Part shown: piece after piece, positions 11,110-13,677 of the stretch
How positions within the stretch are numbered: position 1 is the stretch's first letter
Layout: each line of letters begins with the position of its first letter
Assembly (NCBI GenBank): GCA_030431615.1
Contig: JAUIID010000013.1
Coordinates: 1 to 46,969, forward strand
Source of the DNA: Alphaproteobacteria bacterium
Lineage (GTDB): Bacteria > Pseudomonadota > Alphaproteobacteria > Geminicoccales > Geminicoccaceae
Direction of reading: 5' to 3'
Length of the DNA stretch: 46,969 nucleotides
Program-made: the position numbers and the translations under genes
Notes under the pieces: generated by a model
The model's database searches: none
Told to the model about the DNA's origin: nothing
The model's input: the letters and a program-made list of their open reading frames with translations, nothing else

Positions 11110-11174
11110 GGCTCTTCACGCTTTCTTCATCCGCTTCGGCCAGTCTCGGCCGATCCGTGCAGCATGGAGAGCGG

Positions 11175-12323
11175 ATGGCGGTGGACGGGCGGAGCGAGAC
11201 GGCCGGCGGGCTGGGCTTCCTGCGGCAGCTCTTTGCCGAGCGGCCGCCGGCACCGGCACATCATGACGACCCGCTCGGCGACGCGACGCTGCTGGCGCTC
11301 CGGCGCCACGGCATCCCGCTCACACCGGAATCGTTCACGGTCTGGTACCGGCATCTGGCCGGCGAGCGGCCGGACCTCTCACGCCGCCTGAAGGACCTCG
11401 AGGCACGCGGCGAGCCCTTCGACGCGGGCCTGATCGCCGTGCTCCACGAGCGTTATTTCGGTGCCGACCAGGCCGCCCTCCTGGTCGCCGAGACGAGCCG
11501 CAACGCGCTCCGGCTGCTGGCGCGGCTGGAGGAGGACCTCGCCGGCGCCGAAGCCGATGCCGCGGGCCGGGCCGAACGCATCGGCCGGCTCGGCGCCGAG
11601 CTGGAGGGGGCGCCGGAGACATCGCCCTCGGCCGAGGTCCATGCCCGCTATCGGGAAATCCGGGCCCTCCTCACGGCGCTGGCGCGCGAGACCGACGGCA
11701 TGCGGGTGGCCGCCGGCCGCCTGCAGCGCCGGGTCGTCGAGGGCACTGCCGAGATCAGCCAGCTCCGCGCGGCGCTCCGGACCAATGAGGGGTTCGACGA
11801 GATCGATCCGGTGAGCGGCGTCGCCCGGCAGCGGCGGCTCGAGCGGGCGCTCGAGCGGGCCGTCGCGTCGGCCGCGGCGGCCGGCCGGTCCCTGGTCTAC
11901 CTGATCGTCGACCTCGACCGGTTCGCCGCCTTCAACGAGGCATGCGGCCGCCGCATCGGCGACCTCATGCTCAAGGCGGTAGCACGGCGCATCGGCCTCG
12001 CGCTGAAGCAGCAGGACATGATCGGCCGGCTCGAGGGGGCCGCCTTCGGCGTCCTCCTCGTCGACACCGAGCTCACCGAGGGGACGGCGCTGGCCGAGCG
12101 CCTCTGTCACGACATCGCCGCGCTCACCCTCGAGACCGGCGCGACCGGCGCCGAGATCCCGGCCGTCACGGTCGCCATCGGCGTCGCCCTCTCGCACCCG
12201 GGGGAGCCCCTGCAGCGGCTCGTCGGTCGCGCCGACCGCGCCTGTCGCCAGGCCAGGGAAGCCGGCGGCAACCGCGCCCTTTCCGAACGGTCGATCACCG
12301 TGGTCGGCCGCCCCAAGGCCTGA
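11175..12323 (+). CDS. GGDEF-like protein with a degenerate active site
   Basis: The 382-residue cytoplasmic protein has an N-terminal helical part beginning LLALRRHGIPLTPESFTVWYRHLAG, a form typical of alphaproteobacterial diguanylate cyclases. A coiled-coil-rich middle follows. The C-terminal GGDEF fold (YLIVDLDRFAAFNEACGRRIGDLML, VAIGVAL, ADRACRQAREAGGN) is well preserved. However, the signature is EGAAF instead of GG[DE]EF (near residue 286), and no clear RxxD inhibitory site is seen, so cyclase activity is very unlikely. It may act as a c-di-GMP or protein sensor, and a PilZ polysaccharide synthase pair is encoded nearby. The ATG at 11175 follows GGAGAG closely; a GTG at 11157 is possible. 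Confidence 0.85.
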   Translation: MAVDGRSETAGGLGFLRQLFAERPPAPAHHDDPLGDATLLALRRHGIPLTPESFTVWYRHLAGERPDLSRRLKDLEARGEPFDAGLIAVLHERYFGADQAALLVAETSRNALRLLARLEEDLAGAEADAAGRAERIGRLGAELEGAPETSPSAEVHARYREIRALLTALARETDGMRVAAGRLQRRVVEGTAEISQLRAALRTNEGFDEIDPVSGVARQRRLERALERAVASAAAAGRSLVYLIVDLDRFAAFNEACGRRIGDLMLKAVARRIGLALKQQDMIGRLEGAAFGVLLVDTELTEGTALAERLCHDIAALTLETGATGAEIPAVTVAIGVALSHPGEPLQRLVGRADRACRQAREAGGNRALSERSITVVGRPKA

Positions 12324-12433
12324 TCCGGGCTCCGGCGCCCGTCCGGCAGGCATAAGCAATGTTTATACTTGCGTGGCGCCAACCTGCTCCGGCGTGCCCT
12401 TCGGGGCGTTTCAGCCCCCGCAAACGCTTGGGT

Positions 12434-12579
12434 TGTCGCGGTATACGCGACATTCGGGCTCGGGGTGTCGCATATACCGCGACAGCAGGGGCCGAACTGT
12501 CGCGGTATATGCGACATAAGGAATCGTGATGTCGCAGATTCTGCGACAATGGCCCGCAAGTGTCGCGTTATATGCGACA
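12434..12579. repeat. Five 19-bp palindromes at 32-bp pitch
   Basis: Copies are at 12434-12452, 12466-12484, 12498-12516, 12530-12548 and 12561-12579. All read TGTCGC-N7-GCGACA, with an A/T-rich centre such as TGTCGCGGTATACGCGACA. Start-to-start distances are 32, 32, 32 and 31 bp, close to three helical turns. The 12-13-bp spacers are unrelated to each other. All copies present the same face of the helix, as expected for cooperative binding of a dimeric protein. Confidence 0.93.
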
Positions 12580-12585
12580 GGTGAC

Positions 12586-12690
12586 GACGAACGAACCTGG
12601 GGAATCGACGATCGAACCCACGGATTCGACGATCGAACCCGGGAAATCGACGAACGAACCCAGGACCCTGCGAACGAACCCGGGAGACCC
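12586..12690. repeat. Five tandem 21-bp iterons
   Basis: Units start at 12586, 12607, 12628, 12649 and 12670, all exactly 21 bp long with no gaps. The shared core is GACGAWCGAACC (GCGAACGAACC in the last), followed by a variable G/A-rich end. The period equals two helical turns. The array begins 6 bp after the last palindrome. The 21-bp period is a multiple of three, so the units also read as a seven-residue peptide repeat, but no supporting gene structure was found. Confidence 0.9.
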
Positions 12691-12952
12691 TAACCTGCGG
12701 GCCGGTAACGGTTTTCACCCTGTTTTGGCGAATGCTCGCCCAGCCGCCGCACCGTCGAAAGCACGAATTGCCGAACCAACCCGGGCAGCCCGCCAGAAGG
12801 CTTGCCCGCAGCGTCGAAATGGGCTATAAATCCTATAGACAAATCTATCCCCGCGGGACTTTGCGGCCTGCTGCGTCGGCTTCGGCGACAGGTCCGAGGT
12901 ACTCGCCACCTTCGTCTCCCTGGCGGGTCGACGCCGGGCGCGCCGGCGAACG

Positions 12953-13228
12953 TCAGGGGTTGGTGAGGCGGAGAGTCAGGTCGTCCCGGGCCTGCGCGGC
13001 CTCGGTCAGTGTGCGGGCGATGGCTGCGTAATCGCCACCGAGCGCCTTTCGGGCGTTCTCGGTCAGGCGCCAGTCGATGGTGACCGGACCCGCGACGTCG
13101 GTGGTCAGCACGTCGAAGAGCGCGTCGAGATTGGGGCGGAAATGCGGCGGGAAGCCGAGCTCGCCGGCGAGCCTCGCCAGCACCGCCCGCTTGCTCCGCT
13201 GCCGGCCGTCGAGGCGGGCGGTGATCAT
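12953..13228 (-). CDS. Barstar-family ribonuclease inhibitor
   Basis: This 91-residue cytoplasmic inhibitor should block the RNase encoded just upstream. The barstar core is plain: ELGFPPHFRPNLDALFDVLT, then PVTIDWR. Asp35, Asp39 and Glu76 fall at the same numbers as the barnase-contacting residues of Bacillus barstar, while Tyr29 is replaced by His and Trp38 by Phe. Its ATG overlaps the RNase stop (ATGA), so toxin and immunity protein are coupled. The frame is open upstream but only as a shadow of the RNase gene. Confidence 0.9.
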   Translation of the reverse strand: MITARLDGRQRSKRAVLARLAGELGFPPHFRPNLDALFDVLTTDVAGPVTIDWRLTENARKALGGDYAAIARTLTEAAQARDDLTLRLTNP

Positions 13229-13677
13229 CGCTGGCCCTCCGCGTCCGCCGGGATCTCGTAGAAGGTCTCGTAGTGGTCGAGGGTGACGAAGATCAGGCCG
13301 TCGTTGGAGAAGACGAGCCGTCGGGCGCCGCGCCGGCCGCAGTCGAAATCGAGGTCGGCCTCGTACCAGCGCCGGCCCTGCCGGTCCGGCAGCCGCCCCT
13401 CGCGATTGCCGAAGCGGTCGCCGCCGATCACATGGCCGGGTGCCGAGCGGCACAGATCGTCGCCCGGCCGCCAGCCGAGGTCGCGGGCCTCGTCCTTGGT
13501 CACGTAGTAGTCCGGCAGGTCGCCCTCGCGCCGCAGCGTCTCCACCGTCTCGGCGAAGCCGTAGGCATCCTCGAGCCCGAGCAGCAGCGCCAGGCTGCGC
13601 AGCGTCTCCGTGTCGGCGAGGGCACTGCCGATGAGCAGGCAACCGGTGACGAGGAAGGCGGCGAGGCGCTTGAGCAT
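13225..13677 (-). CDS. Exported barnase-family ribonuclease
   Basis: This 150-residue protein consists of a signal peptide (MLKRLAAFLVTGCLLIGSALA) and an N1/T1-type microbial RNase domain. LPDYYVTKDEARDLGW, IGGDRFGNREGRLP, WYEADLDF and LDHYETFYEI match barnase. The catalytic residues are all kept: Lys61, Glu106, Arg116, Arg120 and His135 correspond to barnase K27, E73, R83, R87 and H102. Cys76 and Cys113 could form a disulfide after export. VTGC at 10-13 could also be a lipobox, so a lipoprotein form is possible. GGAGGG precedes the ATG. The cell is protected by the coupled barstar gene. Confidence 0.92.
   Translation of the reverse strand: MLKRLAAFLVTGCLLIGSALADTETLRSLALLLGLEDAYGFAETVETLRREGDLPDYYVTKDEARDLGWRPGDDLCRSAPGHVIGGDRFGNREGRLPDRQGRRWYEADLDFDCGRRGARRLVFSNDGLIFVTLDHYETFYEIPADAEGQR

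Follow-up and report, generated by a model that had tools for sequence, protein, structure and literature searches.

What does a row of five near-identical palindromes do between two convergent genes of a bacterium of the Geminicoccaceae, and is it a feature in its own right? The row lies in a stretch of 46,969 bp, which was analysed as a whole and is called the window here. TGTCGC-N7-GCGACA occurs in it with zero mismatches on the plus strand at 12434, 12466, 12498, 12530 and 12561, giving pitches of 32, 32, 32 and 31 bp, so the five 19-bp palindromes at a fixed pitch described by the first-pass annotation are confirmed. No further exact TGTCGC-N7-GCGACA is found within the window beyond these five; a shuffle statistic for the window (46 found versus 49 expected) counts sites with up to three mismatches and is not a test of the exact copies. 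Although the array is real, it is only part of the feature, as a second phased array and an end box that the first-pass annotation missed belong to the same unit.

The palindrome array and the element around it

Comparison of copies places the whole composite element at 12350-12840, about 490 bp with approximate ends and read on the minus strand, inside a 629-bp gap between a GGDEF diguanylate cyclase gene (11157-12323, plus strand, PF00990) and a convergent barstar gene (12953-13228, minus strand, PF01337), both of which are outside the element. In element orientation, the first conserved motif is the A box TAGGATTTATAGCCCA (12820-12835, minus), near which homology between copies stops in the clearest copy group. 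It is followed by the B box GGTTGGTTCGGCAA (12768-12781, minus, one mismatch), an outlying relative of the direct repeat, and then by five direct repeat cores on the minus strand: the most degenerate at 12667-12681 (three mismatches), then 12647-12661 (none), 12626-12640 (one), 12605-12619 (one) and, nearest the palindromes, a core of the GGGTTCGTTCGTCGA type at 12584-12598 (two). The palindromes, all exact and assigned to the minus strand in element order, come next: palindrome 1 at 12561-12579, which has the 31-bp step and is next to the direct repeats, palindrome 2 at 12530-12548, palindrome 3 at 12498-12516, palindrome 4 at 12466-12484 and palindrome 5 at 12434-12452, which reads TGTCGCGGTATACGCGACA on the plus strand. 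Between palindromes 2 and 3 is an E motif, CATAAGGAATCGTGATG (12515-12531, plus, three mismatches to the consensus). A tentative E' motif near the other end, GCATAAGCAATGTTTATA (12350-12367, unstranded), is weak in this copy; it is assigned by its position and a half match and is not found at three mismatches.

The same order, with an A end box, five 21-bp direct repeats and five palindromes, plus E and E' in a minority of copies, is found elsewhere in the genome. The direct repeats have the core consensus GGGTTCGNTCGTCGA and their row adjoins the palindromes, while the A box reads TAGGATTTATAGCCTA or TAGGAATAATAGCCTA. In the 35 loci collected first, the palindromes are mostly five per array and direct repeats are beside nearly all of them; only four palindromes are found at up to two mismatches in four of these loci (L059, L069, L073 and L078), and the direct repeats are partly inverted in L046, L052 and L054. 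The 31-bp step is at the direct-repeat end in most copies and is thus not random. At up to three mismatches, 14 of 35 loci have the E motif CATAAGCRTTCGTGATG in the interval from palindrome 2 to palindrome 3, and 10 of 35 have it again about 164 bp beyond, as E'. Among copies, E within the array is forward in 12 and reverse in five, as if a segment of 13-17 bp inverts.

Lengths range from 427 to 495 bp in twelve copies whose two ends could be located. L046 and L052, the most similar pair, are homologous over 447 bp (87%), a stretch that begins shortly before A and reaches E'; in other pairs the homology starts near A in most top matches and ends +155 to +242 from the first palindrome. The right end is therefore not fixed for all copies, given these varying ends and the presence of E' in 10 of 35 loci only. 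The element is about 430-500 bp in size, non-coding and intergenic.

The palindrome spacers, which had been described as unrelated, prove to be constrained. In all of 174 sites a purine (A or G) occupies position 7 and a pyrimidine (C or T) position 13, the centre is TA-rich, and copy 2 in the window is the exact reverse complement of copy 3.

Copies, relatives and gene surroundings

Exact TGTCGC-N7-GCGACA occurs 169 times in this genome (5.33 Mb, 314 contigs) versus none for a control motif read backwards, and pairs of exact sites number 33 at a pitch of 31 bp and 124 at pitches of 30-33 bp. With arrays at many loci, the suggestion of a dispersed chromosomal element is borne out. A total of 39 copies was analysed: the window, 34 further array loci and, later, L121, L122, L129 and L130. 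Three of the 39 are defective: L049 and L121 by truncation, L130 by decay. With two truncated copies and at least one decayed, single copies are dispensable.

Exact paired arms are found in none of 59 other genomes (two of the same genus, 28 of the family and 29 of the class) and in no viral contig, while a direct-repeat pair is found in three of 31 genomes of the family, all of this genus. A pattern combining the A and B boxes matched only this genome among 385 genomes of the class; it is insensitive and recovers just four of this genome's own copies. Five stretches with exact-arm pairs were found in further genome contigs. One of them, L042, shares 99 identical bases with an overlapping contig of this genome (C181) and is taken as the same species for that reason. 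L043 (1-700), from a record labelled Myxococcales, holds an element with the same arm letters and flanks without a long match to the three genomes of this genus, and is either from another host species or a mis-binned contig. The remaining three (L041, L044 and L045), from a record labelled as an Akkermansia muciniphila metagenome-assembled genome, were rejected; they are a different repeat, with near-identical tandem units of 31-32 bp built on TGTCGCC..GGCGACA, and seem to be a palindrome array of independent origin with an equal pitch. The direct-repeat pattern also gave three matches in viral contigs, which were set aside: they are the same local sequence with two repeat units and no palindrome, and the L119 match is inside an open frame. 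The window element has no match in a plasmid collection, the window has no Rfam match at gathering scores, and no paper on this element was found among the matches listed from the open-access literature. For three proteins of this genome, the eight best plasmid records listed all belong to Alphaproteobacteria.

Nine loci were sampled from each of the two same-genus genomes (G001 and G002). Of these 18, five are cut by a contig end soon after the repeats and one before them, and L104 is degenerate. Where it is readable, the layout is kept: A, B and direct repeats mostly at 21 bp, then sites whose distance from the last repeat, measured to the TATA core where there is one, is near 31.5, 62.5, 93.5, 124.5 or 157.5 bp. 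L100 alone has the full set of five cores, and most other readable loci have two to four. The site letters are of the GAGTCG-GTATAT-GACGCA type instead of TGTCGC-N7-GCGACA and are less uniform. In G001, copies on contigs C450, C216, C14, C94, C69 and C429 are at or near contig ends, and because several copies are so placed the copy number there is probably underestimated. The first-pass annotation held that a motif at chance frequency, with no clustered copies in relatives, would make a selected function unlikely; the sites are clustered here, and clusters of the same layout with other arm letters are found in the two congeners, which leaves a selected function standing.

The window locus is syntenic on both sides in both congeners, where the element is absent. 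Both also keep, beside the empty site, the barnase-like ribonuclease gene and its barstar gene found at 12953-13677 of the window. At the L042 locus the upstream gene is shared, no element is found in the 700-900 bp read after it in either congener, and the downstream side is not syntenic; in the region L042 2455-3872 the element sits where synteny with both congeners breaks off, and copies may promote rearrangement. L061 and L129 have an odd pitch series in common, and L046, L052 and L054 their inverted repeats, in each case at unrelated loci, which indicates that the unit has been copied. Both features expected of a mobile element in general are thus found: the unit recurs at loci unrelated to one another, and relatives have sites that lack it. 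Positions shared between species number two among the 35 loci and the 18 congener loci (L046/L110 and L075/L099), a count that the short congener contigs may make too low; these two positions were either inherited or targeted twice.

The A box is -2 to +34 nt from the stop codon of a co-directional gene in 14 of the 26 copies with an A box at up to four mismatches, and its TAG is the stop codon of the neighbouring gene in L047, L053 and L065. No target duplication above shuffles was found in 12 copies (k = 3, 4, 5, 6 and 8; offsets 0-6), including the target site duplication expected of a MITE derived from a DDE transposon, and no terminal inverted repeat was seen by eye at the A and E' ends of these 12.

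By gene calls from a custom codon-usage caller, 13 of 33 contexts are convergent, the window included, six of 33 are between divergent genes, and in 26 of 34 the gene upstream has the direction of the element. Of the 68 nearest neighbours, 42 were scanned with Pfam; they are metabolic, transport and signalling genes of no single theme; GGDEF recurs in three, HWE kinase, GFO/IDH/MocA oxidoreductase and glyoxalase in two each, and a BrnT/BrnA frame is found in one. These 42 include no transposase or integrase, and no two copies were found to have nearest neighbours of one gene family (35% identity or more). Paralogous genes occur in several loci, and an autonomous version of the element among them was rejected, as none is the nearest neighbour of two copies and the Pfam scan covers 42 of 68. 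The Y1 (HUH) transposase TnpA_REP (PF01797) has no match in this genome (G000, 97% complete) or G001 (86%) and two matches in G002, with no element copy in the loci sampled around them. Ten of 11 tyrosine-recombinase loci were scanned and none has a copy; this genome has three such matches, with no copy in the loci examined. A plasmid iteron origin or centromere was also rejected, given about 40 copies, no rep or par gene among the 42 of 68 neighbours and no match in the plasmid collection.

Phasing, conservation and orientation of the sites

Across 38 copies, the palindrome pitch is 31 bp in 40 steps, 32 in 103, 41 in one and 42 in two; the three exceptions are one helical turn longer, and both steps of 42 belong to one subfamily. 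Steps between direct repeats of the same orientation are 20 bp (26), 21 (102), 42 (1) and 63 (1), and the distance from the last repeat centre to the first palindrome centre is 21 bp in 33 copies, 42 in four and 52 in one, so that the two arrays are 21 or 42 bp apart in 37 of 38. Taking 10.5 bp as one turn, 184 palindromes give a mean vector of 0.96 and 168 repeats one of 0.97, with nearly equal phases of 0.19 and 0.17 bp; these figures are descriptive and not tests, because the copies are related.

The letters at positions 7 and 13 bear on whether the signal acts as DNA or as RNA. Among 174 sites the pair is G-C in 58, A-C in 53, G-T in 53 and A-T in 10. Hairpins in 3' untranslated regions, serving as terminators or stabilisers, would suit arms that could pair and the predominance of co-directional upstream neighbours. 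However, a hairpin formed on one strand would favour G-T over A-C, and the two counts are equal, without strand bias; Watson-Crick combinations, at 68 of 174, are below the approximately 94 predicted by independence, helical phasing is meaningless for RNA and the window has no Rfam match. The RNA reading is contradicted by these counts and is very improbable. The N7 spacer appears instead to be under a symmetric constraint, such as a dimer bound to double-stranded DNA would impose. Strand-symmetric palindromes at whole helical turns are what a phased array consists of, and the first-pass suggestion of an array for a dimeric DNA-binding protein is upheld as far as phased double-strand-DNA sites go, with binding itself predicted and the partition, nucleoid or silencing roles that it offered conjectural.

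The sites are also conserved copy by copy. Over four close copy pairs, chosen by highest score in the copy comparison and without overlap, differences number 2 of 240 positions in arms, 18 of 360 in repeat cores, 20 of 138 in palindrome centres and 220 of 920 elsewhere, with a slight lean towards conservation as site classes were set by consensus match at up to two (arms) or four (repeats) mismatches. Arms differ at 0 or 1 of 60 positions in all 14 pairs compared. Among loci identified by an exact direct-repeat pair alone, 30 of 31 have at least four palindromes at up to one mismatch and 25 have all five, the exception being L121; the random background for this retention test was drawn from array-holding loci, and its minimum is not meaningful. 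If the close pairs arose by copying, the arms would have been kept after it.

The element points along the G-rich strand, which is taken as the leading strand, in 26 of 36 copies by coding-corrected third-position GC skew (p 0.011; two copies lack a corrected value). Agreement is 21 of 24 at |skew| of at least 0.03 and 15 of 15 (14 contigs) at 0.05 or more, with thresholds set after seeing the data and four copy pairs sharing a contig and hence a skew value (one pair at 0.05 or more). Raw skew near the loci, the first measure, agreed in 28 of 35, and all eight copies with an opposed upstream gene followed the skew; with more contig sequence, raw skew agrees in 23 of 34 (p 0.058). At loci with |skew| of at least 0.05, genes at large follow the G-rich strand in 61 of 141 cases and upstream neighbours in 11 of 13, and because upstream neighbours follow the skew too, gene and replication direction are partly confounded. 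In the congeners, whose contigs are short, 11 of 18 agree (5 of 9 at 0.05 or more) and the signal is not confirmed.

GANTC, the site of CcrM, occurs at 10.2 per kb in 37 element cores, none of which lacks it; at the same loci its density is 0.96 in coding sequence and 2.75 in the other intergenic sequence. It is found in 64 of 148 repeats (column permutation mean 26.8, maximum 39) and in 23 of 176 palindrome centres (mean 3.3, maximum 9). Congener elements have 18.8 per kb versus 0.91 in flanks, and at least one in each of 18 loci. This excess, above column permutation, would suit an element methylated by CcrM and read after fork passage in the cell cycle. However, PF01555, which we take to be the family holding CcrM, has no match in the three genomes (97, 86 and 82% complete), while a Caulobacter control was positive, and we regard a methylation element as the most improbable of the readings considered.

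Explanations of the element

At the level of sequence, the facts to be explained are the unit itself and its phasing, related copies that lie at loci unrelated to one another, the empty congener sites and the per-copy conservation of the arms. We propose, as the somewhat probable explanation, a spreading intergenic element that is kept by its host and assembles an ordered protein-DNA complex from putative proteins. Each 19-bp palindrome would be bound by a dimeric protein, which would put five dimers at intervals of three turns along one face of the helix. The five direct repeats, which follow one another every two turns and share the phase of the palindrome array, would be occupied by a second protein. 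The copied unit, which would enter new intergenic sites, would begin at the A box and end about 190-240 bp beyond the first palindrome, or at E' where present. We infer from sequence patterns that there are two proteins, that they bind and that the complex serves the cell, each copy being kept for that service and not only for the element's own movement. Because the orientation follows the G-rich strand, the role would most likely be chromosome organisation or a replication-linked process. Against a host function are neighbours without a single theme among the 42 of 68 scanned, only two positions shared between species, the decayed and truncated copies and an orientation not confirmed in congeners; arm letters that differ between species, and less uniform congener sites, would be odd for a core host function.

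The most serious competitor, which we hold to be possible and give about one chance in three, is a purely selfish, non-autonomous mobile element, whose arrays would bind a recombinase or transposase supplied in trans, as the multi-site ends of Tn7 or the arm sites of a phage attachment site do, and from which the host would gain nothing. Related copies lie at loci unrelated to one another and the congeners have empty sites; these findings, the confinement of direct-repeat pairs to this genus among the family genomes and the A boxes close to co-directional stop codons are all consistent with it, and so is the bias to the G-rich strand, since orientation bias is expected of elements that use the lagging strand (PMC6006769). 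But the 12 copies have no target duplication, and no terminal inverted repeat by eye; no neighbour family is common to two copies at 35% identity or more, no mobility gene is among the 42 scanned neighbours, no Y1 transposase is matched in this genome or G001, the tyrosine-recombinase loci scanned hold no copy, and the arms are intact after copying. We favour a host-kept nucleoprotein site over this selfish element. That the arrays are operators of a transcription regulator, with a regulon of about forty operons, is unlikely: the sites are palindromic and helically phased and six contexts are divergent, as operators might be, yet more than twice as many are convergent, among them the window, the scanned flanking genes have no single theme, the set of five is independent of context and few positions are common with the congeners.

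Known systems resemble the element in parts. The sites of SlmA, Noc and MatP are tens of palindromic single sites spread over the chromosome; the present palindromes are likewise dispersed, but are in arrays of five plus five inside a copied unit. Tn7-like transposon ends and phage attachment sites have several recombinase-binding sites in tandem near an end, whereas here there is no target duplication and no mobility gene beside the copies examined. BOX elements are modular in make-up. Those of Streptococcus pneumoniae are dispersed repeats almost limited to close relatives, read as parasitic with stress on secondary structure (PMC3049150); our element is similarly modular, dispersed and nearly confined to close relatives, but differs from that description in its double-stranded-DNA signal, conserved arms and helical pitch. 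Like REP, BIME and REPIN sequences, it consists of many dispersed, species-specific intergenic palindromes; unlike them, it has five at a phase-locked pitch, a second array and no Y1 transposase match in this genome. REPs tagged with CGTC or TGTC have an unpaired tag, stems of 8-9 bp and loops of 4-5 nt, and are rarely clustered, as defined in PMC3733652, while in our palindromes TGTC is internal, pairs with GACA and belongs to conserved 6-bp arms around 7 bp.

Under the host-kept reading, we tentatively suggest, as a possibility we still doubt, a new class of element: a self-spreading unit turned into a host-maintained, replication-oriented nucleoprotein platform, in which two phased arrays would assemble two proteins, and whose letters would have been replaced jointly, at dozens of loci, from one sister species to another, with an unchanged geometry of five plus five at whole turns. 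If this is true, L046/L110 and L075/L099, at the same positions with different letters, would be snapshots of letter turnover. Bacterial repeats that are small and dispersed are often taken for parasites or RNA hairpins. In this element the geometry is conserved between species and the sequence is not, and single sites are intact after copying, which makes the question of parasite or chromosome part directly testable. It would also be a natural case of joint specificity change in a DNA-binding protein and its target sites, which number well over a hundred.
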